A DNA stretch of 47,913 nt, taken from NCBI RefSeq assembly GCF_000332355.1, contig NZ_KB235959.1, positions 131,986-179,898 of the forward strand, in the 5' to 3' direction. This DNA comes from Baaleninema simplex PCC 7105 (lineage in GTDB: Bacteria; Cyanobacteriota; Cyanobacteriia; Cyanobacteriales; Geitlerinemataceae). Below the pieces are notes generated by a model. The model searched no databases. It was given only the letters and a program-made list of their open reading frames with translations, and was not told the DNA's origin. The translations under genes were made by a program, and so were the position numbers. This document shows, piece after piece, positions 6,482 to 23,544 of this stretch. Numbering within the stretch: position 1 is the stretch's first letter; every line of letters starts with the position of its first letter.

Positions 6482-7114
6482 TCAATCTTCAACATCTAAA
6501 ATCACCTGAATCCAGTGCGGTGGGCGAGGAATGGGGTTCCCCAGGCGATCGAGGAGCAGCAACGCCCCCAAATGAACCACGAGCATATAAACCGCACTGT
6601 TGATAAGAATCATCACCACGGCGATCGCTTGAACGACCGATAAGTCTGGCTGCACTAACCAGCCGAGTTTATCGAAAACCCAATTGAGAAATTCCGTAAC
6701 CTGAACCGTAAAATAAACCCAGAGGTCTTCTCCCAATAAAATCGAAAGCAACCACACCTTAAAAAATACGCCAAACGTTCCGATCAGCATTCCGAGAAAA
6801 ATTGCCAATCCCCAACTGGCGCGACGCCGCCACAAGACCCCCAACAACACCCCTTGCAGAGCGTAAGGAACCACAAACAAAATACTGCGCGTCGGCCCCA
6901 TCAACACCGTAAGCAACAGTCCCGATACCGTCGCCGACATCCACGACGCACGAGCGCCCCACCGCAAATATACCAACGCCATCGGCACCGGAAAAAAGAT
7001 CCGCAGCAGCGGTCCGAGGGGAAAATAGTAGTTAATCAACCAAATTAAACTGGCCGTACTGGCGAGAAATGCCGTTTCGACCATCACCAGCGGCGAACGT
7101 GCGGGCTTACTCAT
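6482..7114 (-). CDS. DUF2232 family multispan membrane protein
   Basis: A 210-residue integral membrane protein with about five or six hydrophobic spans and the motif PVPMALVYLRWGARAS typical of DUF2232 proteins. The family's function is unknown; some members resemble the membrane subunits of energy-coupling transporters. The ATG at 7114 is preferred to the TTG one codon upstream. It starts only 13 nt after the stop of the CRP-family gene, so the two are almost certainly co-transcribed. Confidence 0.75.
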   Translation of the reverse strand: MSKPARSPLVMVETAFLASTASLIWLINYYFPLGPLLRIFFPVPMALVYLRWGARASWMSATVSGLLLTVLMGPTRSILFVVPYALQGVLLGVLWRRRASWGLAIFLGMLIGTFGVFFKVWLLSILLGEDLWVYFTVQVTEFLNWVFDKLGWLVQPDLSVVQAIAVVMILINSAVYMLVVHLGALLLLDRLGNPIPRPPHWIQVILDVED

Positions 7115-7127
7115 CAACCAAAAACCG

Positions 7128-7844
7128 TCAGGTCAGCATCCGCTCTAAAGCGTACACGTCGGGAATGCCGATCGTTTCGCGATCGCGCTCGATCAATCCC
7201 TTTTTCTCCAATTTACTCAACACCCGCGTCACCGTTTCCCGAGCCAAACCGCTCAAACTGCTTAACTCTCGGTGGGGGAGGTTGGGAATTTCCATTCCGC
7301 CCGTTTCGTCGGGGGTTCCTTGACCTTCAGCCAAAAACAACAAAATATCGGCCACGCGCGAGGTACTATCGGACTCTCGCAGGCGCAACCGTCGATTGAC
7401 CTGGCGCAAACGGCGACCCATCAGTTGCGCCAAACGAATTCCCGCCAACGGTTCTGTCTTGACCAAATGAACGAAATCTTGAGCGGGCATATTTCCAATG
7501 GTGGTCGGGGCGAGCGTAATCACGTCCGTCGAGCGAGGAACTTCGTCTAACGCCGCCATTTCCCCGAACAGTTCCCCAGTCCCCAAAATATTGAGCGTGA
7601 CCTCTTTTCCGTCTAAATTGTACGTCCGAATTTTCGCCCATCCTTCGAGAATGAAATATACCGAACTCCCCCAATCGTTTTCGAGCAGGATCACTTGGTT
7701 GGGCGGGTGCGTTCGGGTGACGACGTGGGCGAGTGCCTCGTCTAAGACTCGTTCGGGCAGACCAGCGAAGAACGGCGCCGAGCGGAGCTTTTGTTCGAGT
7801 TCGGGATTTTGATGCGCGTCGCGAGGATGATACCGGTCTTCCAT
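7128..7844 (-). CDS. CRP/FNR-family transcription regulator
   Basis: A 238-residue regulator with an N-terminal cyclic-nucleotide-binding fold (residues about 20-135) and a C-terminal winged helix-turn-helix (LSSLSGLARETVTRVLSKL, about 191-209). The effector pocket carries GELFGEMAALDEVPRST. This matches the pattern of cAMP-binding CRPs (GE-L-x-G-E, then R-S/T), so cAMP binding is plausible. It lacks the NtcA signature in this region and is not NtcA. It leads a two-gene operon with the DUF2232 gene and diverges from the giant acidic gene, which it might control. No cysteine cluster for an Fe-S centre is present. Confidence 0.87.
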   Translation of the reverse strand: MEDRYHPRDAHQNPELEQKLRSAPFFAGLPERVLDEALAHVVTRTHPPNQVILLENDWGSSVYFILEGWAKIRTYNLDGKEVTLNILGTGELFGEMAALDEVPRSTDVITLAPTTIGNMPAQDFVHLVKTEPLAGIRLAQLMGRRLRQVNRRLRLRESDSTSRVADILLFLAEGQGTPDETGGMEIPNLPHRELSSLSGLARETVTRVLSKLEKKGLIERDRETIGIPDVYALERMLT

Positions 7845-8271
7845 GAGGTCGTCATGTATCTTTGTATCTGAGATCGTGTCTTCTAGGGCAGCTCGGGTCG
7901 GCGTATCGATCGTTGCTCCCTTAAACTGGCGGTTATCGTGCGTTTTCGCACCTCGATTGCCTTAGCCTACCAACTCCGTCGCGTAAGAACGCGCCAGTCA
8001 GTAAATTTAATTCTACTCTGTTTCTGGGACTGCGGAAATCTTAACACTTGAGTCGCCTCGAGCTATGGCACTCTTACTTTTATAGAGAGTCTCTCTCAGA
8101 GAGGGAGAGGGGGAGAGGGGGAGAGGGGGAGAGAGGGAGAGAGGGAGATGGGGAGAAACTGTTACCTGTTAACTATTCTCACTGCTCACTGCTCACTATT
8201 GACTGCTCACTGTAAAAGGTGACTGTCTTCACTGTTGACTGCTCGCTGTTCACTGTAAAAGAGGTTTCACC
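7845..8271. other. Divergent intergenic region with GA-rich array and ACTG repeats
   Basis: This 427-bp gap separates the CRP-family gene from the giant gene. Near 7938-7951 is a small GTGCG-TTTT-CGCAC hairpin. Positions about 8097-8155 hold a GA-rich octamer array, then AAACTGTTACCTGTTAACT and repeated CACTGCTCACTG-like units with two CTGTAAAAG motifs. The last ends next to the giant gene's ribosome site. The same module recurs at 35100-35210. No TGTGA-N6-TCACA CRP box was found by eye. Confidence 0.6.
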
Positions 8272-11200
8272 GTGAGTTTCGATCCCCACACACTGCTTTC
8301 AGAAATCGAGCGACGATTGTTCGAACTCGAAACGCTACCGCAGGAGAACACCTCAGACATAACCGATCGCCTGCGACAAACGTTAGAACGAACCCGCGAC
8401 GAGTTGCTCGAAGCCGCAACCTCCCAGGAACAAACGCAATCGTTGGCGGCCTCCGTCGAGTCCAACCTCTCGAATCAAGTGTCGGGACTGCACGCCGTTC
8501 TCCTCAAACCACTGCAACTCGAACTCGATCGCCTGCGACAACGGCGCGATCTCCTGGCTGAAAACGTCGAACGGCTCGAACGCCAGCAAACCAGCCAGTT
8601 ATCTCTCCAACAAGAACGCCTTCAGCGAGAACAGGCCGTACAAGAGGTTTTGACGGAGTTCCAAAGACAGCTCCAAGCAGCGTTAGAACGACAGATGACA
8701 CGCGCTCTAACCCAGGCCGAAGCTCAATTTTTTTCTCGAGCTGAAGCCGCATCGCTTCCTCCCGAACCTTCAGACACCGTCGCTCCCCTACTCCACCCCC
8801 AACAGCGGCTCGATCGCCTCCAACGAATTCAAGCAGACTCCGATCGAATGTTACTGACCCTCGATTCGACCATGCGAGTGGTGTTCGATCGCCTTCTGTC
8901 TAACCTCCAAAGCTATCAAGATTCCCTCTCCCGCAGCGTTGAGAAAATTTACGACATCAGCCAGCAGGGAGAAGCGATCGTCGCGACCTTAGTTCGACAC
9001 CTCACCCAACGCCTCGAGGAAGAACTCAGTCACCGTTTACCGGAAGGATCGCATCCCGCCGCCGAACTCCACGCCGCCGCCGAACCCCCCGTTCTTCCGT
9101 CGAGCCTCGCCAACGAACCCAGCCAAACCGACAGTTCCGAACCCTCAGAACCCGAGGACGATATTCCAACAGCGGTCACAATTCCCCTCGAGGAAGACGA
9201 TCTCGAGAGCGACATCGTTGGAGATTCCCGCCAAATCCCGACAGATTCCTCGTTCGCGACCGCTGAAAACACCGAATCCCCTGACGAACCCCCTCCGATC
9301 GCATCGATGTCACCTGAACCTTCCCCCGAACCGAACCTCGAACCTCAACGTCCGTCAGTCGAACCGTCGCCAGCGTTCTCCGAACTTCCCGACGTTTGGG
9401 CCGATTCTGACGACGACAGTAGTTTCGCCTCCTCCGTTCCGCAATTTATCCGAGACTACGCCGAACCCTCGGCCTCCGATTCCGACGACGACTTAACTCG
9501 CGATCTGTGGGAAGACGAGAGTTCTGAAGACCCGTCGCTGACGACATCGCCTGTTGAAGTTGAAGACGCAGCCGAAGCATCCATCGAATACGAAACCCTC
9601 GACGACCTCGAATTTGAGGAAGAAGAGGACGCGATCGCTCGACAACCGGAAATTGTCGAACCGAAGGTTCCCGAAGACCTCGAAGTTCTCGACGACAGCG
9701 ACAGCGATTTCGACTGGCCGGGACTTCGCGGAACGACCGATGCTGAGTCTTCTACGATCGCCCCCTCCGACGAAGAGAAAGAGTGGGAAAATTTGGACGA
9801 CGATTTAAACCCGGAGGAGGACTCCGAAACCTTGGAACCCTTCTGGGAATCTGACGCAGACGCCTCCGAGCGTTCGGACGCTGAAAACATCGCTGAGTTA
9901 GAACCCTGGAACGAGGACGGCGACACCGATCTCGAGTCGGACGTCGATCGCTTCCTACACGATCGCGCACCAGAAACAGAACAAGAAGAATTATATTCAA
10001 CGGCGATCGAGTCTGAAGATCGTCCGAGCGTTCACGTCGATCCCGAAACCTTCGAGTCTCTCGATACGGACGACATCGAAGAAACCACCGATCGCGAAGC
10101 CGACATCGAGTCAGAAGTCGATCGCTTTTTAGCCACCCATCCCCCAGCCGCCGCAGCTTCTCCCACCAGGGATAACGAAACGTCAACCGTGGAAATCCGC
10201 GATCCTTGGGACGAACCGGACGACGAGAACGAAATCTCCTCTGACGTCGAATCTTTTCCCGAATCGCCTCCCGAATCTCCGCTTAAGTCTGTTCTCGAGG
10301 TCGTCACGACGGAGGGATCGGAAGAACCCACGACCCCAACAACTCCTCTCGACATCGAAGCCGAGGAAGAAATAACCTCACTTCCATCGGATGAAGTCTC
10401 CCCAGCGGACATCCACCCGCCAGAGATCGTACAATCGGATGAAAAGGCACTAGAGTTGTTAGAAGAGGAGTTTTCTCCATCGCCGCTTCTAGAAGAAAGC
10501 GAGGAAGTTAACGACGATTTATCCGCAGCGTTAAGCGAAAGTGTGACTCCCATGTCTTCGCCGTCCGTTCCCGATCCCGAATCGTTAATTCCCGAACCGC
10601 AATCGGCCGAATCCGCCGAGGACAGTTTGCTGCAAAGTTTTGAAGAGGATCTGGAGTCGGAGACGCCGTCGCCATCTTCGGAAAACGATGATTGGTTGAG
10701 CCTCGAGGAGACACCGCTACGTTGGTCTGAGGAAGACGCCGCCGCCGAACTCGAACGGGAATTGAGCCGATCGGCTCAGCAGTCCATGGAACAGTCACAG
10801 CTAAGGTCGCAAACGCTCGATCGCCAGCTCGATCGCTTCTATGACAGTTTGTTCGAGTCGAACCCCGAAACCGCTCCTTCGATTTCTGAGGATGGCGAAG
10901 CGGAGGACGACGACGAAGATTCGAGTCCCCAGATTTCGAGTCGCGGCCATCCAACTCCCACCCCACCCTCGCAACGGCGTCAACTCGATTCGTCCCCGAC
11001 TCCACGGTTAGACGCGGGAGAGGTTTCTGAGGCGATACAGTCAGAGCTGGCGAAAACGGACGAGGAAATTGAAGCCGAGTTAGCTGCGTTCGCGGCGTCT
11101 TTAGAGGAAACGGAGGCGTCGTCGCCAACAGAAGCGATCGAAACTGAGGTTGAATCCGATTCGACGGAGGAAACCCGGCTCGATCGCGAGTTCGATGTAT

Positions 11201-14200
11201 TTGAAGCTCTCTTCAGCGACGACGAAACGGACGATGAAGAACAAGTCGAACGAGAGATTTTAGACGAGTCCGACCTCTGTGATACTGAAGAATTCGACGA
11301 GACGGTCTCCGACTCTCCCACCGTTGAAGACACTGAATCCGAAGAACAAGTCGAACGAGAGATTTTAGACGAGTCCGACCTCTTTGATACTGAAGAATTC
11401 GACGAGACGGTCCCCGACTCTCCCACCGTTGAAGCAAGTGAGGGGGAAACTCGACTCGATCGCGAATTTGCGGTGTTTGAATCTCTCCTCAGCGACGACG
11501 AAACTCAATACGAAGAACAAGTCGAACGAGAGATTTTAGAAGAAGAATTAGAAGAAAACCCCCTCGAGTCGTCCTCCCCTGACGAACCGTCCGCGTCCGT
11601 AGAAGAAGAGGAAACGGAATCCGAAGAACAAGCCGAACGGGAGATTTTAGACGAGTCCGACCTCTCGGATACTGAAGAATTCGACGAGACGGTCTCCGAC
11701 TCTCTCACCGTTGAAGCAAGTGAGGGGGAAACTCGACTCGATCGCGAATTTGCGGTATTTGAATCTCTCCTCAGTGACGACGAAACTCAATACGAAGAAC
11801 AGCTCGAACGAGAGGTTTTAGACGAGTCCGACCTCTTTGATACCGAAACCACTCGAGGCGAGCTGTCCGAACCTGAAGCCGTTTCCGAGGTCGAAGCCAC
11901 GACAGAATCCGAATCGTCCGAAGCAGAAAGCGATCGCGAATTTGCGGTGTTTGCATCTCTCCTCAGCGACGACGAAACTCCATACGAAGAACAGCTCGAA
12001 CGAGAGATTTTAGCAGAAGAATTAGAAGAAAACCCCCTCGAACCGTCCGCGTCTGTAGAAGACGAAGATACAGAAAACAAAGACGTAGAAGACGAAGAAG
12101 AGGAAATTCTCGCGGCCTTTGGAGAAGATGTTTTTGAAGAAGATTTCGCCGACGATGTCGAAGAAAACTCAACCGACGTCGTACCGGATACCGCCTCTGA
12201 GTTCTCACCCGAATCCTCATCAAACCTCGAAGCGATCGAAGACGAGGACGCCAACGACGCAGAACCCGACACCGAAACCGATCGCGACGTAGCTGAGGCG
12301 GCGATCGCTCCTTTCCTTTGGTCTGAAGACGAGGACGCCAACGACGCAGAACCCGCAACGGTCGTCGAGGGTTCCGATACGATTTCAGCGTTAACCGATC
12401 TCATCGGCGAACCCCTCGTTGCAACTGAAGACAACCTCGACGACGAAGACGTTTCCCCCCGAACGTTAGCCCCCGACGAAGATATTTTACTTCCTGAAGA
12501 CGCCGGTTCGGAATTCGCCACAGGGGGCGATCGCCGCCAATTCGATCTCGACGAAACGACGCGAAATCAACTCGAAGCCGACCTTCAAGATCTCGAACGT
12601 TCCGAAGACGCGATCGCCTGGGCCCTCGATTCAAAATCCCCTTCATCTCAACGAACGTCCGAGAAGGCGATCGAGGAATTAGAACAGGTGTTCGACGAAC
12701 TGGCTGAGGCGTTTTTCGACGGCGATGAAGACGACGAGTTCGTCAATCCCTTCGTTCTACAGGACGAATCCTTAGAGGAAGCCGCCGTTTCTCCGCCGCG
12801 TCCGCCACTTCCCCCACCTCCCCGTCGCCGCGTTAGCGTTCCCCCACCGATTTGGCTGGAAAACGCCAACCATCAAACGTGGTATTTGGGTCTCGATTGG
12901 GACGAAACGGGATTGTCGGCGGTTTTGTTCGATCGTCAAACCCAGTCCCTCTATCCGCTGGGGTGGGAACGCGACAGCCACCAACCCCCAGTCTTTCGGC
13001 TTCCGGTAGTGGCGGTTCGCCGTGGCGAGGGTTGGACGGTCGGGTTCGAGGCGATCGAAACTCCCTGCGAGGACGGCGAACTTCGCTTAGAACAGTTTCA
13101 TCCCTGTCTCGAGGTCGGTTTACCCTGGACTGACGACACCGGAACCGATCGCCCAGCGGTACAGTGGTCTGAGACCGTCGAACTTCCCCTTTCGGAAATC
13201 TGCGACGCGTGGCGATCGCTCTTAGAATGCGTGGCGACGGCTCGACCTTACGACGCCTCTCACCGCGTCCCCGCAAACGTCCCCGACCTCACGTCCCTCT
13301 TTCCCAAACTCGGCGGCGTCGTCCTCTCGGAAAACGCAACCTCCTCGGAGGCGTATCGCTTTAACCTGCGAGAAGCGGTGTTGAAAGCCGGACTCACCCC
13401 TCGTCCCGATCGCGTCTTTTTCGTCGATCGCGCGATCGCCGCTCTATTTTTTAACTTACACGGTTCTGAAGCGTCCCCAGATGCTCGAGAATCCCCGTCC
13501 CCCAGTCGCGGAACCCTATTCGTCGCGGTAACGGGAACGGACGGACTGTCGCTGACCTTAGCCAACCTCACCGACGGAACCGAGCGTTCGGTTTCCCAAC
13601 TCTTAGTTTCTGGGTGTTTTCCCTACGGCGATCGCGCCATCGACGAAGATCTCGTCGTGCAGTCGGTTCTCGAAAACGACCCGGACTTACAACAGCAATT
13701 CGGGGTCGCTGACGGCGATTGCGTCCCCGAACCCGGCGATCCCGACCTCGAAAACCGCATCGCGTTTCGACAGTTCCTCAACCGTTCGCCGTTCGGCCGC
13801 CAACTCCTCGACCTCGCAGCGGACATCAACACAGCTCTGGCCGAAAGCGATTATGTCGAATTCGAGTTTAACGGTCGTCGCCATCGCGTCGAACGCCAAA
13901 CCCTCGATCGCCAAATTCTCCGACCTTGGCTCGAACGGCTGAATCGGGAATTCAACCGTCTGTCAAGCGTGGCTGGCGTCTCTGTCGAAGGGATCGATCG
14001 CGTCCTCTGCACCGGTCGTCCGCTCCTGCGATCGAGTCTCTCGGATTGGCTGCGTTACAAGTTACCCAACGCCGTTTTTCTCGATGCTCCAACGGTTCAC
14101 CCCGGTGTGAGCGAAATCGCCTCCGGTTTGGCTCTGTTTCCTCGCTACGGGGAAACCTTCGACTCCGCCGACGCCTCTGGAGAGTTTTTAGAACGCCATC

Positions 14201-14589
14201 AGTACGGCGATTTGTTTCTCTTCCACGAGCTGATCCAAGCCTGTCCCGAGGGATCGTTTTCGTTGCAAGAGGTGTTGAGTCACCTCGAACGACGCGGGAT
14301 TCATACCCGCAAAACCCGCGATCGCATCGCTCGGTTTCTCGAGGGAGAACTTCCCTCGGGTCTCGTTCCCACCCCACCCCGCGATCGTTGGTTGACCGCC
14401 GAGTCCCGAGACTTTCCCCAATACGCCAAACTTCGCCAAATTCCCGCCTTCGTCCGTGAAGGCGATCGCACGTATCGCTCTAACGCCGAACAACGCCACC
14501 GCTGGCGTCAGTACTTCCAATTCCTGACCCGCCACGCTCGACAAAGCCTCCGCGACCCCCTCAGTGCGAAGTTAGCGGTCGATCGCTGA
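8272..14589 (+). CDS. Giant acidic protein: coiled coil, repeats, C-terminal Hsp70/actin-like domain
   Basis: A 2105-residue protein of unknown function with four zones. Residues 1-255 are a probable long coiled coil (LDRLRQRRDLLAENVERLER). Residues about 260-1500 are dominated by D, E, S, P and T and are probably disordered, with recurring VDRFL pieces and a tandem repeat block (about 968-1255). A proline-rich linker (PPRPPLPPPPRRR) follows. Residues about 1537-1955 resemble a diverged Hsp70/actin ATPase: a phosphate-1-like LGLDWDETGLSAVLFD (from 1539), a connect-1-like DRAIAALFF (1719-1727), a phosphate-2-like FVAVTGTDGLSLTL (from 1750) and an adenosine-like VLCTGRPLL (from 1911) followed by HPGVSEIASGLAL. 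About 150 further residues close the protein. The GTG at 8272 has AGAGG about 6 nt upstream. There is no signal peptide or membrane span. The domain call rests on motif order only. Confidence 0.8.
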   Translation: MSFDPHTLLSEIERRLFELETLPQENTSDITDRLRQTLERTRDELLEAATSQEQTQSLAASVESNLSNQVSGLHAVLLKPLQLELDRLRQRRDLLAENVERLERQQTSQLSLQQERLQREQAVQEVLTEFQRQLQAALERQMTRALTQAEAQFFSRAEAASLPPEPSDTVAPLLHPQQRLDRLQRIQADSDRMLLTLDSTMRVVFDRLLSNLQSYQDSLSRSVEKIYDISQQGEAIVATLVRHLTQRLEEELSHRLPEGSHPAAELHAAAEPPVLPSSLANEPSQTDSSEPSEPEDDIPTAVTIPLEEDDLESDIVGDSRQIPTDSSFATAENTESPDEPPPIASMSPEPSPEPNLEPQRPSVEPSPAFSELPDVWADSDDDSSFASSVPQFIRDYAEPSASDSDDDLTRDLWEDESSEDPSLTTSPVEVEDAAEASIEYETLDDLEFEEEEDAIARQPEIVEPKVPEDLEVLDDSDSDFDWPGLRGTTDAESSTIAPSDEEKEWENLDDDLNPEEDSETLEPFWESDADASERSDAENIAELEPWNEDGDTDLESDVDRFLHDRAPETEQEELYSTAIESEDRPSVHVDPETFESLDTDDIEETTDREADIESEVDRFLATHPPAAAASPTRDNETSTVEIRDPWDEPDDENEISSDVESFPESPPESPLKSVLEVVTTEGSEEPTTPTTPLDIEAEEEITSLPSDEVSPADIHPPEIVQSDEKALELLEEEFSPSPLLEESEEVNDDLSAALSESVTPMSSPSVPDPESLIPEPQSAESAEDSLLQSFEEDLESETPSPSSENDDWLSLEETPLRWSEEDAAAELERELSRSAQQSMEQSQLRSQTLDRQLDRFYDSLFESNPETAPSISEDGEAEDDDEDSSPQISSRGHPTPTPPSQRRQLDSSPTPRLDAGEVSEAIQSELAKTDEEIEAELAAFAASLEETEASSPTEAIETEVESDSTEETRLDREFDVFEALFSDDETDDEEQVEREILDESDLCDTEEFDETVSDSPTVEDTESEEQVEREILDESDLFDTEEFDETVPDSPTVEASEGETRLDREFAVFESLLSDDETQYEEQVEREILEEELEENPLESSSPDEPSASVEEEETESEEQAEREILDESDLSDTEEFDETVSDSLTVEASEGETRLDREFAVFESLLSDDETQYEEQLEREVLDESDLFDTETTRGELSEPEAVSEVEATTESESSEAESDREFAVFASLLSDDETPYEEQLEREILAEELEENPLEPSASVEDEDTENKDVEDEEEEILAAFGEDVFEEDFADDVEENSTDVVPDTASEFSPESSSNLEAIEDEDANDAEPDTETDRDVAEAAIAPFLWSEDEDANDAEPATVVEGSDTISALTDLIGEPLVATEDNLDDEDVSPRTLAPDEDILLPEDAGSEFATGGDRRQFDLDETTRNQLEADLQDLERSEDAIAWALDSKSPSSQRTSEKAIEELEQVFDELAEAFFDGDEDDEFVNPFVLQDESLEEAAVSPPRPPLPPPPRRRVSVPPPIWLENANHQTWYLGLDWDETGLSAVLFDRQTQSLYPLGWERDSHQPPVFRLPVVAVRRGEGWTVGFEAIETPCEDGELRLEQFHPCLEVGLPWTDDTGTDRPAVQWSETVELPLSEICDAWRSLLECVATARPYDASHRVPANVPDLTSLFPKLGGVVLSENATSSEAYRFNLREAVLKAGLTPRPDRVFFVDRAIAALFFNLHGSEASPDARESPSPSRGTLFVAVTGTDGLSLTLANLTDGTERSVSQLLVSGCFPYGDRAIDEDLVVQSVLENDPDLQQQFGVADGDCVPEPGDPDLENRIAFRQFLNRSPFGRQLLDLAADINTALAESDYVEFEFNGRRHRVERQTLDRQILRPWLERLNREFNRLSSVAGVSVEGIDRVLCTGRPLLRSSLSDWLRYKLPNAVFLDAPTVHPGVSEIASGLALFPRYGETFDSADASGEFLERHQYGDLFLFHELIQACPEGSFSLQEVLSHLERRGIHTRKTRDRIARFLEGELPSGLVPTPPRDRWLTAESRDFPQYAKLRQIPAFVREGDRTYRSNAEQRHRWRQYFQFLTRHARQSLRDPLSAKLAVDR
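11171..12034 (+). repeat. Coding repeats inside the giant protein
   Basis: Two alternating modules recur within the gene. Module A reads LDREFAVFESLLSDDET and then YEEQ-ERE-IL; it appears near 11180, 11455, 11735 and 11930. Module B reads DESDLFDTEEFDETV and then DSPTVEASEG; it appears near 11265, 11370, 11650 and (shortened) 11820. Conservation is high at the nucleotide level too, which suggests recent unequal duplication. Confidence 0.85.
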
Positions 14590-19245: not shown

Positions 19246-20527
19246 CTGATAAGGCTATGACTTTTACTTAGGAGGTATCGAAAGCCAAAGAAGCCCCAGG
19301 ATAGGGAGAAGTACGGTGGCGTCCCCAACTCAAGGGAAGTCCTTGAAAGAGGCGGACGACAAAAGAGATACAGCCAAGGCGCCAACAAGAAAGAGTTCTC
19401 GGTCTGAGGGTCGCGGCGGCCAGACCGGTCGAGTCAGAGTCAGTCCGAGGGGAAGTCGAAGGCTTTTGGGAGTCTTCCCGACAAGCCCCTTCGGTGATGA
19501 GCCAAAGTAAAGCCACAGACATGGCCAGCCAAAGACACTCAGCCCGGTGAGGATGAGTCAAACGGGTGCGTTGCCAATTAAAGCCATCGCTCTTGAGATC
19601 GCGATAAGCCGCTTCAGTCCAAGAGCGAAAGCCATAAAAGGCAGCCGAAGCCGATTGAGGTGAGGCGTCACTCAGCAACAGCCAAGGGTCTTTGTAATCC
19701 TCGTCCCATCGGGCTAACAGGGTACAATCGAGAGGATTTTGGCGAAAGCAGCGTACCGGTTGACTAAAACTCTCACCAACTCGAACCACTTGCTCGAGAG
19801 GTTGCCAGTCGGCGAGAGTTTCCCCCGAGCGCACTTGGTAATAGCCTTGTGAGTTAATACGTAACAAAGGATGCCATCCCAGAGCCACAATTTCCTCATA
19901 CAGCCAACAAGCATAGAGTCCTCGATCGGCCAAAACCCAAACCCTGACCGACTCGGGAACCACTCCGCTCAAGCGACGGAGCAAGTCTTGCCACAGGGGC
20001 TTCCAGGGGTGTTTCTGGGAAGCTTTCACGATTTTCCAGGCCACGGGAATGCCACTGCCGCGATAGAGTACGTTGAGTGACAAGACGATAAATTTTTGAC
20101 CGATATGGGTCGCATCTAAGGCCAGGAACAGGTCGTCGCTCTCTCCTAATAGCTCTAAGACCCACTTCAGCAGCGGCGCGAAACAACTGGCTACATCTAG
20201 CTCAGCATATTTACGACCGTAAGCTTGGCGTTTTTCTTTGTACCACTGTTGTAGTCTTTGACGTACGTTGGTGAATTTTTCCCCGTTGACTTGGGCAATA
20301 CACTCTGACACTTGAGTCAGACTTGAAGAGCGACTCATCATCATGCCAAAGCTCCAGGTGGCTAGCCCTGATACTTGTGGCAAGGAAAGATTCGGAAAAT
20401 GACGACTGACTTCTTGCGACCACTGTTTGAGGTAAGCTGAGTTGTATTTCATGGCTTCTCCTAAACGAGTCTACGGCTTTCTCTTTGTCGGCTCTTTCTC
20501 TCTCTCTTACAATCATAGCCTTGTCAG
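19246..20527 (-). mobile_element. IS4-type insertion sequence, ~1.28 kb, inserted in a GA-rich repeat
   Basis: Terminal inverted repeats CTGATAAGGCTATGA (19246-19260) and TCATAGCCTTGTCAG (20513-20527) match at 14 of 15 positions and bracket one full transposase gene. Both flanks are GA-rich array. The 11 bp before the element (19235-19245) equal the 11 bp after it (20528-20538), GAGAGGGAGAG, consistent with a target duplication, although low-complexity sequence could match by chance. Confidence 0.85.
19268..20452 (-). CDS. IS4-family transposase
   Basis: A 394-residue DDE transposase. Catalytic motifs: LALDATH (first Asp, about residue 110), VLADRGLY (second Asp, about 173) and Y-GF-R-SWT-E-AAYRDL-K, an exact fit to the IS4 signature Y(2)R(3)E(6)K. 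The ATG at 20452 has AGGAGA about 7 nt upstream. The frame is uninterrupted between good inverted repeats, so the element may still be active. The last ~60 residues (after ITEGACRED) are Ser/Arg-rich and poorly conserved in appearance. Confidence 0.9.
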   Translation of the reverse strand: MKYNSAYLKQWSQEVSRHFPNLSLPQVSGLATWSFGMMMSRSSSLTQVSECIAQVNGEKFTNVRQRLQQWYKEKRQAYGRKYAELDVASCFAPLLKWVLELLGESDDLFLALDATHIGQKFIVLSLNVLYRGSGIPVAWKIVKASQKHPWKPLWQDLLRRLSGVVPESVRVWVLADRGLYACWLYEEIVALGWHPLLRINSQGYYQVRSGETLADWQPLEQVVRVGESFSQPVRCFRQNPLDCTLLARWDEDYKDPWLLLSDASPQSASAAFYGFRSWTEAAYRDLKSDGFNWQRTRLTHPHRAECLWLAMSVALLWLITEGACREDSQKPSTSPRTDSDSTGLAAATLRPRTLSCWRLGCISFVVRLFQGLPLSWGRHRTSPYPGASLAFDTS

Positions 20528-20820
20528 GAGAGGGAGAGGGGGAGAGGGGGAGAAACAGTTATCTGTTTGCTGTCTTCACGGGTGACTGGCGACTGGTGAC
20601 TGGCGACTGGTGACTGTCTTCACTGCTCACTGTTCGCTGTTGACTGTAAAAGGTGCGTGACGAGTTGGCCGGTAAGACCGGATACTTTTCTTGTCTTTAG
20701 GTCACGCATCCTTGTATGTTGGCGGTGTACATTGGCGGTGCGTGACAGAGCGATCGCTCTCAGGATCGACACCCGATTTTTCAAGTCACGCACCCTACGA
20801 CTGGCGACTGTAAACATCAA
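20528..20820. repeat. Composite repeat downstream of the exoprotein gene
   Basis: It begins with the right part of the GA array split by the IS (to about 20553), then GACTGGC/GACTGGT heptamers (about 20580-20620), CTGTAAAAGG, a type B palindrome (GGTGCGTGAC 20652-20661 to GTCACGCATC 20701-20710), a CTTGTATGTTGGCGG linker, and a type A palindrome (20737-20746 to 20785-20794) with the CTACGACTG flank. The linker is the uninterrupted counterpart of the MITE site at 45445-45547. Confidence 0.85.
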
Positions 20821-23544
20821 CTATCGACAGTTTGTCTCAAAGCGCAGCGGAATCTCTGCCCCTCGACGGGAAAGGAGGAGGCGACCGTTTGCTCGCGTCG
20901 TTCCCTGGGCTTCCACGATCGCGTCGCCGAGTTTCCAGGTGGATTCTTCAGGCATAGGTAACGCAATTTGTGGCGCGATCGCCCCTTCCGACGCGCTACC
21001 GTCCCGAATCCCCGTCGCCTCAGCCGTACCGTACCGTCCTACCGACAAATCGTAAGGATTTTCCGGCAAACCGCCCGTTCCCGTCACCGTAAACTGTCCG
21101 CCGCTGTGACGCCGAGTCAAACAACTGTCGGCGACCAAGCGATCGACTCGAATAAAATCGCTGGCCAGTTCGACTAACGACGTATCGAGGCGAACGTCGG
21201 GATTGACAATTTCGACTAAACCGCCAAACTCCGCCCCGAGATCGGAACTGGCAGTAATATCGCTTTCGGGAGTCGTGCGATCGCGAAACTGAGTTCCAAA
21301 GATCCCTCGCGCGTTGACGAACACCCGGCCGCCGAATCCCGTCTGAGCGTTGGCGGTAATATCGCTGTTATCGAGTGCCACCAACGTTTCAGTATCGATC
21401 TCGATATTGCCCCCCGTGGCCGTATCTCGAGCGTTAGTGGAAATCGAACTTTCCCCAGACAGCCACAAATCCCGCGATCGAATCTCAATATTTCCTTCGC
21501 GGGCGGTTGCCGTTTCTGCCACCAACCTCGCCCCACTTTCCAAATTGACTCGAGGTGCGTCGATGGCTAAATTTCCCGCCCGTTCTCCTTCCCCAATACT
21601 ACTGACAACGATTTGTCCCCCCTCGCGCACCGTCAGCTCTTCCGTCATGAGGGTAATATCTCCCGCCGCCCCGATGACATCGGCCGTTTCCGACGGCGGT
21701 ACGGGAGACGGAATCGCCACGAGCGTCGCGTTCGATCGCAACCCACTACGCAACTGACCGTCAGAACCCGTCCCCGCAATGTCCACCGACTCAGAAGCCC
21801 GCACGGTCAACCGCCCCGCCGCTCCCCGATTGGACGTCGAGGTAACGATTTCCCCCCCATCTCGTAGCACCAATCGCGCCGTTGTAATTTCAATATCCCC
21901 CGCTGCTCCGCTGCCTTCGCTACGGGTGGCGATATTCGTGGCAACCCCCGAATCGGTACGAGTTCCCGAAATTAGAACGGATTCGGAGGCTCTGACCACC
22001 ACCGTTCCCCCTTGCGCCGCCCCGAACGTGACCGCTCCAACCCCCGCACCGTCTCGTAGAATTAGATGTCTGGCTCGAATGTTGAGAACTCCCGCTTGAG
22101 TATTCGCATTTTGGAAGGCGTTCGCCCCGATGCCCGTGTTAAATACCCCGTTGGGCGTCGTTCCTGACATTTCAATCGTATCGGAAGCGACCAGGTTTAC
22201 CATTCCACCGTCTCCGCCGCGAAAGGTGGAGGCAAACAAGCCGCCTCCTTCATCGAGGACGATATTACGGGCGTAGACGTTGACTTCTCCTGCGTCGCCG
22301 TTGCCTACCGTTTCGGCCACGATTTGCGAGCCGCTCAGATATAGGGTTCCACTCAACTGCACGTCGAGCGTTCCACCGCGTCCGTTACCTCGCGTTGCTG
22401 TCGAGACAAACGCACCTTGGCGCAGGGTCAGCGTTTCGGCGTCAATGTCGATCGTGCCTGCATCGCCGTCGCTAAAGGTAGTGGCGTACAGTCCGTTTCC
22501 CACCTGGGCGGGATTGTCGATCTCATCGAGGGCGAACAGTCGTTCGAGAATGTCTTGAAGTTTTCCCGCCCCGTCGAGGGTAATCGTCGTGGCTGCGACC
22601 CGCAAATTTCCCGATCGCCCGCTGCCGAACGTGGACGCAGAAATTAGAGAATTGTCGAAAACCTGTAGGGTATCGCCGACGATGTCGATGCGCTGTCCGT
22701 CCCCGTCGCCGAGGGTGTCGGCGAACAGGTAGGACGTACCGCTCAATTGGAGGTTGCCGCGAACGAAAATAGAACCGCCCCCGTTCCCGCTGACTTCGAC
22801 GCGAGACCCGTTACTCAGGGCGATCGCGCCGAATTCTGTCGCCTCGATATCTCTCGTGTCGAGGTTCCAAGTACCGTTTTCGAGGGAGATCAGATCGACT
22901 TCTCCTTGAGGAGCGCGTACGATACCGTTATCGATCGCGATCGCGCCACCGACAAAAGCGAGGGTTTCTCCAGTATCGACACTCAATCCGACGAAATTTC
23001 CCTGACTGTCGCGACTCTGAGAACGGTTGACGATCGCTCCCGGTTGCGACCCCAAACCCAAGCCCACGGGAACGCTCACAGAAAGAATGGCGTTAGAAGC
23101 GGTGGTGGTGTTAAAGGCGGTTCCGTCGGCGAATTCGATGCGGTTGGCGGTACTGGCGAAAAACGACCCGCCGAGATCGAGTTGGGCGTTTTCCCCGAAG
23201 ACGATACCGTTGGGATTGAGGAGAAACAGGTTCGCCGTTCCGTTGGCGGCCAGGGTTCCGTCGATCGTCGAGGGCAGCGTTCCCGTGACGCGACTGAAGA
23301 TGTTACGAACCTCGGGAGTGTTCTCGAAGACGGCGCGAAATCCCGTGGGAACGGAGAAGGAATCAAAGCTGTGAAAGAGGTTGCGATCGCGAGTCGTTCC
23401 CCCGTCGAGGCGAATGGTGTTTCCGTCCGTTTCCACCTGGGAAGGATTGGGTAACGTGCCATCGGGAACGATTTGCGCCATCGCGGGAACAGTCAGGCTG
23501 AGATGAAATCCCAAGCCGAGGCAACAGAAAATTTGAGTTTTCAC
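20821..23544 (-). CDS. Two-partner-secretion exoprotein (filamentous haemagglutinin N-terminal domain)
   Basis: A 907-residue predicted secreted beta-helix protein. Residues 1-24 look like a signal peptide (LGLGFHLSLTVPAMAQ). Residues about 25-140 form the TPS domain used to engage an outer-membrane TpsB transporter, with the hallmark NPNGIVFG (about 110-117) after NGTANLFLL. The rest is repetitive beta-helix with motifs such as GNGDAG and IDIDAETLTL. The C-terminus looks complete. The start is GTG at 23544 with no clear Shine-Dalgarno. The iscB element ends about 30 bp upstream, so the native promoter has probably been displaced. No tpsB gene is in the window. A broken paralogue lies at 46689. 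Confidence 0.88.
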   Translation of the reverse strand: MKTQIFCCLGLGFHLSLTVPAMAQIVPDGTLPNPSQVETDGNTIRLDGGTTRDRNLFHSFDSFSVPTGFRAVFENTPEVRNIFSRVTGTLPSTIDGTLAANGTANLFLLNPNGIVFGENAQLDLGGSFFASTANRIEFADGTAFNTTTASNAILSVSVPVGLGLGSQPGAIVNRSQSRDSQGNFVGLSVDTGETLAFVGGAIAIDNGIVRAPQGEVDLISLENGTWNLDTRDIEATEFGAIALSNGSRVEVSGNGGGSIFVRGNLQLSGTSYLFADTLGDGDGQRIDIVGDTLQVFDNSLISASTFGSGRSGNLRVAATTITLDGAGKLQDILERLFALDEIDNPAQVGNGLYATTFSDGDAGTIDIDAETLTLRQGAFVSTATRGNGRGGTLDVQLSGTLYLSGSQIVAETVGNGDAGEVNVYARNIVLDEGGGLFASTFRGGDGGMVNLVASDTIEMSGTTPNGVFNTGIGANAFQNANTQAGVLNIRARHLILRDGAGVGAVTFGAAQGGTVVVRASESVLISGTRTDSGVATNIATRSEGSGAAGDIEITTARLVLRDGGEIVTSTSNRGAAGRLTVRASESVDIAGTGSDGQLRSGLRSNATLVAIPSPVPPSETADVIGAAGDITLMTEELTVREGGQIVVSSIGEGERAGNLAIDAPRVNLESGARLVAETATAREGNIEIRSRDLWLSGESSISTNARDTATGGNIEIDTETLVALDNSDITANAQTGFGGRVFVNARGIFGTQFRDRTTPESDITASSDLGAEFGGLVEIVNPDVRLDTSLVELASDFIRVDRLVADSCLTRRHSGGQFTVTGTGGLPENPYDLSVGRYGTAEATGIRDGSASEGAIAPQIALPMPEESTWKLGDAIVEAQGTTRANGRLLLSRRGAEIPLRFETNCR

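Follow-up and report, generated by a model that had tools for sequence, protein, structure and literature searches.

A giant acidic protein of Baaleninema simplex joins a SepJ-type coiled-coil domain to a predicted Hsp70-like head: a candidate component of bacterial multicellularity

A stretch of 47,913 nt from the genome of Baaleninema simplex PCC 7105 (contig NZ_KB235959.1, positions 131,986 to 179,898 of the forward strand; referred to as the window throughout) contains a giant gene whose product, 2105 residues long, combines an N-terminal domain related by profile comparison to the coiled coil of SepJ, a strongly acidic linker and a C-terminal head predicted to adopt the Hsp70 nucleotide-binding fold. 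SepJ holds the cells of the cyanobacterial filament together, and the protein described here is a candidate, apparently unnamed component of bacterial multicellularity. Its gene, treated below as a fusion of gene A (helical N-terminus plus acidic linker) with gene B (head), stands by itself, with a divergent CRP-family gene upstream and a convergent purK downstream, and is laid out as follows (genomes, loci and families of our comparison are designated G, L and f, respectively, the window's genome being G000):

8272–14589, + strand: fused gene A and gene B, 2105 residues; GTG start, without internal stop
8389–9036, + strand: SepJ-like N-terminal domain, residues 40–255 (gene-A hidden Markov model (HMM), E 7.6e-42; SepJ profile; hhalign, 99.7%)
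9037–12801, + strand: acidic low-complexity linker, residues 256–1510 (composition)
11181–12060, + strand: imperfect internal linker repeats, copies 105–282 nt apart (repeat search, families D1 and D2)
12376–12591, + strand: possible copy of a conserved linker island, residues about 1369–1440 (recognized visually and with a single short pattern, SDTISALTDLI; HMM negative)
12871–14151, + strand: Hsp70-like nucleotide-binding head, residues 1534–1960 (AlphaFold2, Foldseek, VIA, hhalign)
14209–14529, + strand: C-terminal winged-helix-like domain, residues 1980–2086 (AlphaFold2 model m50519512afdf, mean predicted local distance difference test (pLDDT) 82)

The first-pass annotation of this DNA had postulated a single protein of 2105 residues with about 1250 mostly acidic residues in its middle, and both points hold: the open reading frame (ORF) is intact on the + strand, and in the linker D and E account for 33.6% of the residues versus 4.3% for K and R, resulting in a net charge of −368. 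Homologous long fused ORFs without stops, with open frames of 1413–2530 residues, are found in eight genomes of the same family (G002, G003, G005, G007, G009, G010, G012, and G013). Within the modelled part of the linker, the sole long segment of low confidence (pLDDT <50) comprises residues 1340–1423. The coiled coil of about 255 residues, also part of the initial proposal, has to be narrowed: residues 40–255 do match the gene-A profile (see below), but the designation is too strong for the window copy, because five of seven stretches failed a heptad-pattern test (5–50, 110–150, 175–255, 190–255, and 900–985; p 0.13–0.85) and only 80–136 (p 0.003) and 75–115 (p 0.0495) passed at p 0.05, values that are uncorrected for the seven tests. 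We found no membrane segment in the window protein, its maximum 19-residue hydropathy being 1.18 versus 2.78 in the SepJ-like protein of the same genome; among 72 gene-A regions, a membrane-like stretch appeared in one (L062), close to an over-extended start. The assumption that the protein is undescribed is in line with the profile searches: its one Pfam match lies far under the cut-off (12.3 versus 27 bits), NCBIfam gave no match at E 0.1, and none of the proteins scanned is shown to pass any Pfam or NCBIfam cut-off. Nor did we recognize a publication naming this protein in the literature searched, which excluded most subscription papers.

In many relatives, the two halves of the protein are encoded separately. 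At eight loci (L036, L038, L039, L041, L045, L046, L047, and L049), a gene encoding the head alone follows immediately after a separate gene A, as judged by clustering or profile, and L043 and L050 have the same look, the upstream gene there being judged without a profile. Under loose labelling of 78 named loci, 40 were fused, 31 split, and 3 undecided, and a further 4 were fused loci truncated at a contig end. Fused copies from family f33 comprise about 1170–1510 codons; Coleofasciculus (L119) provides an example of a canonical head encoded on its own. With the stricter labels applied to the head tree (39 fused, 29 split, and 11 unassigned of 79), at least 10 changes between the fused and split states were counted, on a quick tree with 22 of its 76 inner branches under 80. 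Many loci stem from metagenome bins, such that some splits may be assembly errors; a locus on a complete chromosome, L094, is split as well. An HMM built from 29 split gene-A proteins, with the window excluded, retrieved window residues 40–255 at E 7.6e-42, the best of 200 shuffles scoring 1.1 bits. These comparisons show that the window gene arose by fusion of two genes, which many relatives carry side by side as separate units. This sheds a different light on the reversed domain order, with the ATPase part at the C-terminus, that had been pointed out at the outset: the order is as stated, but it is due to this fusion. Repeated fusion of neighbouring genes suggests joint action, and from the multiple fused/split switches we infer that the products of A and B probably work together.

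The relation of the N-terminus to SepJ emerged from profile searches in both directions. The gene-A N-terminus profile (A5) matched 81 of 291 cyanobacterial genomes at E 0.001, and most genomes with a good gene-A match had, among the matches listed, a second one in another protein, mostly of 560–860 residues. In G222, this second protein (769 residues) has an EamA domain (E 1.4e-17) preceded by a coiled coil and a linker rich in Pro, Ser, and Thr, and its gene is located about 1.1 kb from a gene bearing both HetR domains; the counterpart in the window's genome (G000 C4:1935583-1936173) has an EamA domain as well (E 5.1e-16). Twelve such proteins were retrieved, two of which were scanned and found to be EamA-positive, the other ten being alike by eye. 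We term them SepJ-like on the strength of their domain arrangement, which fits the order of coiled coil, linker, and permease described for SepJ in the accessible passages of two publications (PMC6463045, PMC12096826). When gene A was aligned with the 12 SepJ-like coiled-coil domains by hhalign, the match extended over 184 columns (99.7%, E 7.1e-26, 22% identity). The best PDB match of A5 was Max, with 26 bits, and single members matched coiled-coil Pfam families at E 1e-4 or weaker; a reverse search was needed as a control because coiled coils yield spurious matches. In 16 genomes, the SepJ profile ranked the SepJ-like protein first (eight of those are profile members); the A gene, fused or split, came second in 10 of 10 head-bearing genomes, with 65–110 bits, and the window gene (G000:C5:140416-141015) scored 67.8 bits (E 3.2e-18). 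In G033, where gene A stands alone, it reached 23.2 bits, and all other matches, including those in five genomes without either gene, remained at or below 19.9 bits. In an unrooted tree, gene A (31 rows) and SepJ (12 rows) are separated by one branch with a support of 100. Taken together, the reciprocal profile comparisons show the N-terminus to be homologous to the SepJ coiled coil. In the window protein, EamA gave no match at E 10, and a third homologue of the SepJ coiled coil was not detected in G222 above 11.9 bits.

For the C-terminal 595 residues, homologues were present in 33 of 59 related genomes. To assemble the heads, genome contigs were scanned with one peptide pattern; the best 80 of 150 confirmed relatives were taken and two with broken frames dropped, resulting in an alignment of 79 rows (the window plus 78 relatives). 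The AlphaFold2 model derived from this alignment has a mean pLDDT of 82 and a predicted template modelling (TM) score of 0.77; most ten-residue blocks of model residues 201–750 (protein residues 1540–2089) average above 90, and a few lie at 66–87. The 50 matches listed by Foldseek against the PDB were of the Hsp70 type, with Sse1 and DnaK on top (E 1.0e-13, probability 1), and the best 50 listed by VIA-align (Z 20.6–23.8, root-mean-square deviation 3.0–5.9, 333–398 residues) were all Hsp70- or Hsp110-type proteins or complexes containing one. A comparison of the head profile with 14 cyanobacterial DnaK proteins by hhalign (94.6%, E 6.9e-8) placed the connect-1, phosphate-2, and adenosine segments in register, and 18 alignment columns are invariant across all 79 heads, including that of the window. 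Against the PDB, the head profile gave weak matches to DnaK (E 0.016) and PilM (E 0.03); with the window head alone, single-sequence search of the PDB returned chance-level matches only, as did the search of Pfam with the window protein, such that the relatives were needed. No match above the PF00012 cut-off was obtained for the window protein, one relative scoring 11.8 versus the 20.6 bits required and another giving none. One relative showed weak sequence matches to MreB and PilM; these were not echoed among the 50 Foldseek and 50 VIA matches listed, which are of the Hsp70 type. On the basis of the model, then, the head is predicted to have the Hsp70 nucleotide-binding fold. This agrees with the Hsp70/actin-like C-terminal fold suspected initially, and the structural check suggested at that time, a search for the duplicated RNase H fold in a predicted structure, came out in its favour, the model matching Hsp70 structures. 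The extent of the structured region needs correction, however: structure continues beyond the Hsp70-like head nearly to the end of the protein, with an added C-terminal domain past the nucleotide-binding domain. A C-terminal beta-sandwich of the kind that binds substrates in Hsp70 was not clearly recognized; some of the listed VIA alignments reach model residue 752–753 and continue into chain regions past the nucleotide-binding domain. Folded alone (residues 1945–2105), the tail gave winged-helix proteins as top structural matches, yet with VIA Z values of at most 8.0 and Foldseek E values of at least 0.26, and a profile match to the MarR-type regulator TcaR had an E value of 0.039. The winged-helix-like assignment is weak, and we build no argument on it.

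In Hsp70 proteins, an Asp, a Lys, and a Glu have catalytic roles. The motif positions originally assigned could be confirmed at residues 1540–1547, 1719, 1753–1760, and 1911–1916; together with the Lys site, they read as follows:

12889–12912, + strand: degenerate phosphate-1 loop GLDWDETG, residues 1540–1547 (G at 1544 in 72 of 79 heads, D in the window)
13099–13101, + strand: residue 1610, equated by eye with the catalytic Lys of Hsp70 (His in the window, Lys in 70 of 79 heads)
13426–13428, + strand: residue 1719, counterpart of the catalytic Glu of Hsp70 (Asp in the window, Glu in 63 of 79 heads; beside NEPTAA of DnaK)
13528–13551, + strand: degenerate phosphate-2 loop, residues 1753–1760, with Val 1753 and Ser 1760 (in register with DLGGGTFD of DnaK)
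14002–14019, + strand: adenosine motif, residues 1911–1916, with Arg at 1916 (Gly 1915 in 79 of 79 heads, Gly 1916 in 67 of 79)

The phosphate-1 Asp is retained in 78 of the 79 heads, including the window. Residue 1610 was equated with the Lys by eye because this segment falls outside the hhalign alignment; the window has the sole His among the 79 heads at this site. Residue 1719 is Glu in 63, Pro in 8, Asp in 5, Ala in 2, and Ser in 1 head, position 1760 is Glu in 71, and position 1753, aligned to the first phosphate-2 Asp of DnaK, is Asn in 35, Ser in 25, and Asp in 5. At the phosphate-1 Asp, 1544, 1610, 1719, 1760, 1916, and 1753, the window protein reads Asp, Asp, His, Asp, Ser, Arg, and Val, respectively. 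When Hsp70 membership is judged by the catalytic Asp, Lys, and Glu plus the phosphate loops, the window protein falls outside, keeping the phosphate-1 Asp only and having D/E in phosphate-1. Eight other genomes of the window's family vary in this respect: most sites are lost in G003, G005, G007, G009, G010, and G012, while G002 retains the Gly and Lys and G001 the phosphate-1 site and Glu, not the Lys. In ten further genomes, five of family f33 as well as G066 and G080 are canonical at the sites other than 1753, where N, D, or S is found (Asp only in G080, as judged by printed row order); G313 is without the Lys, and G134 and G179 are eroded. The phosphate loops had been called degenerate, which applies to the window; the degeneration is, however, a trait of its family of genomes, as most wider relatives retain Asp and Gly in phosphate-1 together with the Lys and Glu. 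The replacement of Hsp70-like active-site residues in the window genome and, to varying degrees, in its family suggests that the head in this lineage is a pseudo-ATPase that has lost catalysis. For the wider family, we infer nucleotide binding from the residues kept, hydrolysis being uncertain there.

A conserved island is embedded in the linker, roughly of the form DTIxxLTDLL ... YIxASPDENLLP ... LxLDxxTLxxLxxDLxxLE. Scored with an island HMM, 54 of 72 gene-A regions reached at least 16.7 bits (35 seeds and 19 non-seeds; best of 720 locally shuffled controls, 9.1 bits), and the island was also detected in eight of ten further genomes, with G134 and G179, whose copies are eroded, missing it. 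In the window protein, this HMM detected no copy. FxxLF-like linker motifs (two patterns in 65 linkers, 8 versus 0.8 and 6 versus 0.6 expected) were dropped from consideration because only 9 of the 65 linkers have either.

Searching the 291 genomes with the head profile gave matches in 92 at E 0.001 or better, comprising 60 strong heads (≤1e-90), 11 weaker ones (about 1e-17 to 1e-53), and 21 short matches typical of other Hsp70-like proteins. HetR was found in 63 of the 291 genomes, and strong heads were present in 55 of these 63 versus 5 of the 228 HetR-negative genomes. The phi coefficient with the strong head, which ignores phylogeny, was 0.87 for HetR versus 0.63 for the control NifW, and 0.78 versus 0.29 after leaving out 31 listed f33 genomes. 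Among the HetR-positive genomes, G086 and G094 have weaker heads, and G041, G098, and G122 have neither gene A nor head, G098 yielding a SepJ-like match only in the gene-A profile search. In three HetR-positive genomes, stand-alone gene A copies of 418–684 codons were seen near the CRP gene (L235, L236, and L237), the head being undetected in the 13 kb fetched, and a short, eroded version of 415–585 residues at L204 and L205 (family f8), with a CRP gene on the same stretch. Just outside the window (G000:C5:186770-187609), another Hsp70-like protein of ~540 residues is encoded that lies partly above the PF00012 cut-off; short matches like those of this protein constitute the second head-profile match in many genomes.

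In comparison with known systems, the window protein shares with SepJ/FraG (Anabaena alr2338) a homologous coiled-coil domain followed by a variable linker, both proteins being present in 10 of 10 head-bearing genomes searched; it differs by the lack of an EamA match and of a membrane segment, by its strongly acidic linker and Hsp70-like head, and by its location at another locus. The predicted fold and motif order are those of the Hsp70 nucleotide-binding domain (DnaK, Sse1, BiP), with the Asp, Lys, Glu, and Gly-Gly present in most relatives. Unlike Hsp70, the head is C-terminal on a tether, has no recognized substrate domain and stays below the Pfam cut-off; of the two phosphate-2 acids, the second is replaced by Glu in 71 of 79 heads while Asp seldom occurs at the first (5 of 79), and the window has lost more sites. 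SepI (Anabaena alr3364) is similar by description, with a coiled coil and a linker-like domain, no permease, and an interaction with SepJ (passages of PMC12096826), and differs, again by description only, in its length of 521 residues, with no head mentioned in the part of PMC12421839 available. PilM and MreB have the superfamily fold and weak profile matches in common with it; they are not among the 50 matches listed by Foldseek or VIA, which excludes nothing. The protein is thus outside Hsp70 and SepJ as defined, yet assembled from both. For the question of how filamentous cyanobacteria join their cells, gate septal junctions, and position SepJ, a conserved SepJ-coiled-coil paralogue with an Hsp70-like head, present in 55 of 63 HetR-positive genomes, represents a concrete gene testable in model filamentous strains. 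It also touches on the dispute about SepJ topology, as the same domain type is found here on a protein without a membrane segment and with an ATP-binding fold. The existence of such a soluble-looking paralogue suggests that the SepJ coiled-coil domain type can exist in the cytosol and is not tied to export. A filament-only gene list (PMC2821919) and FraD pull-down lists (PMC9722847) have been published, to go by the accessible parts of these sources.

On the other side of the start codon, the giant gene is flanked by two conserved neighbours:

7845–8271, no strand: intergenic region with the divergent CRP-family gene; GA-rich run, CTCACTG repeats
7128–7844, − strand: CRP-family regulator, conserved neighbour; 54 of 63 loci have a divergent homologue upstream
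6482–7117, − strand: DUF2232 membrane protein, conserved next to the CRP gene; found at 49 of 60 loci

In the 54 cases among the 63 loci with enough flank, the neighbouring CRP homologues are 66–94% identical to that of the window. Downstream, 20 of 64 loci carry a sugar transferase and 22 of 60 have PgsA; the window's downstream gene, purK, was found at none of 64 other loci. Of 20 genomes without a strong head, 14 have the CRP gene (61–80% identity), and 12 of these 14 have DUF2232 no more than 1.5 kb away; G031 represents an empty site, its CRP gene directly facing the sugar transferase and PgsA. The CRP–DUF2232 pair is therefore independent of the A/B gene. A generic Hsp70 chaperone operon was rejected, the identified conserved neighbours being CRP, DUF2232, CobT-like, sugar transferase, and PgsA; neighbour c4, considered to be GrpE, turned out to be a bacterial sugar transferase in the Pfam scan.

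Our preferred interpretation, to which we give an even chance, is that the protein serves filamentous cyanobacteria as a soluble scaffold associated with the septum, and that its Hsp70-like nucleotide-binding head has decayed in the window's lineage. The anatomy is well supported; the septal function is presumed, as are oligomerization, septal location, nucleotide switching, and partner binding. According to the available excerpts, SepJ self-associates, as tetramers, with a coiled coil that attaches to peptidoglycan as well as to septal partners (PMC12096826, PMC6463045), and it contacts divisome and septal proteins (PMC12096826, PMC12288457, PMC7766704). In the simplest view, a SepJ-type paralogue without the permease would work at SepJ's site, but from the cytosol. 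The long acidic linker, which in most relatives contains one or more conserved islands, would serve as a tether, and the head would act as a nucleotide-dependent conformational switch in most relatives and, because further active-site positions are lost there, probably as a non-hydrolysing (pseudo-ATPase) binding module in the window's lineage. A more far-reaching variant, which we regard as improbable, envisages a cytoplasmic nucleotide switch of the septum: the SepJ-type coiled coil would dock at septal junctions and the head would sense or use ATP to change the junction state, and the window's lineage would have arrived at a fixed, non-hydrolysing form through active-site loss. Septal junctions have a gated five-fold cytoplasmic cap whose protein is unnamed in the passages of PMC9722847 at hand; on this variant, the protein would be a candidate constituent or gatekeeper of this cap, which shuts when energy falls.

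Several points weigh against a septum-associated scaffold. The septal placement rests on coiled-coil homology, which points to a domain, not to a place. The SepJ coiled coil is mostly held to be periplasmic, a topology that has been challenged (PMC6463045 and PMC12096826, in the parts accessible), and an ATP-binding head should be cytosolic; for this reason, the two coiled coils may never meet. None of the gene neighbours is a known septal gene: they comprise the CRP-family gene and DUF2232, joined in certain lineages by the sugar transferase and PgsA. The correlation with HetR is uncorrected for phylogeny; 8 of the 63 HetR-positive genomes are without a strong head, in three of these eight (G033, G216, and G316), gene A occurs alone next to the CRP gene and a head was not detected, and HetR gave no match in the genome of the window itself, though a SepJ-like protein is present. 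The Foldseek superpositions are loose (TM 0.31–0.38 over the query and 0.39–0.67 over the target for the best 50 listed), and hydrolysis appears doubtful even in the wider family, given that position 1753 is so rarely Asp.

Alternatively, the protein might be an Hsp70-type chaperone or co-chaperone hub, in which the SepJ-like coiled coil merely mediates oligomerization, without any septal role. The nearest fold is indeed the Hsp70 nucleotide-binding domain, and 78, 70, and 63 of the 79 heads retain the Asp, Lys, and Glu, respectively; nevertheless, we consider a hub unlikely, as none of the scanned proteins has a Pfam HSP70 match above the cut-off, a substrate-binding domain was not recognized, neither a J-protein nor GrpE is among the conserved neighbour clusters identified (some clusters being unidentified), and active-site positions are lost in the window's family. 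The divergent CRP gene and the downstream sugar transferase and PgsA, in the proportions given above, might instead indicate that the protein regulates motility or surface polysaccharide in connection with the CRP gene, acting via the winged-helix-like tail; SyCRP1 has been linked to type IV pili (PMC2633013, as far as accessible), with our neighbour assigned to the CRP family only. This appears distinctly unlikely to us, considering that the CRP–DUF2232 pair also occurs without the A/B gene, so that the adjacency may be positional, that purK takes the downstream position in the window, that the winged-helix reading is weak (Z at most 8.0), and that CRP-like sites are near chance.

A polymerizing actin-like cytoskeletal protein, in line with the actin/Hsp70 superfamily fold and the weak MreB and PilM matches, is a possibility to which we attach little credence: the 50 Foldseek and 50 VIA matches listed are of the Hsp70 type, a 595-residue head on a charged tether of 1250 residues would be an unusual filament subunit, and the window copy is without several active-site residues. 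The same losses, along with the long repeat-rich linker, would be expected if the window copy were a decaying gene without function. That, however, is very hard to reconcile with 2105 open codons, with stop-free long fused copies in eight other genomes of the same family, with a head fold predicted at high confidence, and with 18 columns invariant in 79 rows that include the window.

Some minor features of the window may be added. The CRP-family and DUF2232 genes (6482–7844) are 10 bases apart. Immediately 5' of the giant gene, a GA-rich low-complexity run extends over about 8083–8155. A CRP site upstream of the gene was considered and rejected: a two-mismatch site is located at 8218, and the total for the window is near chance (18 versus 12.9 expected; 9 of 100 shuffles reach 18). 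A 16-base stretch, GGTGACTGTCTTCACT, occurs exactly at window positions 8218, 20609, and 36805, the first beside the CTCACTG-rich repeats, and looks like a dispersed repeat. Finally, a transposase-like gene (DDE_Tnp_1 above cut-off) adjoins a gene for a 907-residue protein with a TPS secretion domain at 19268–23544.

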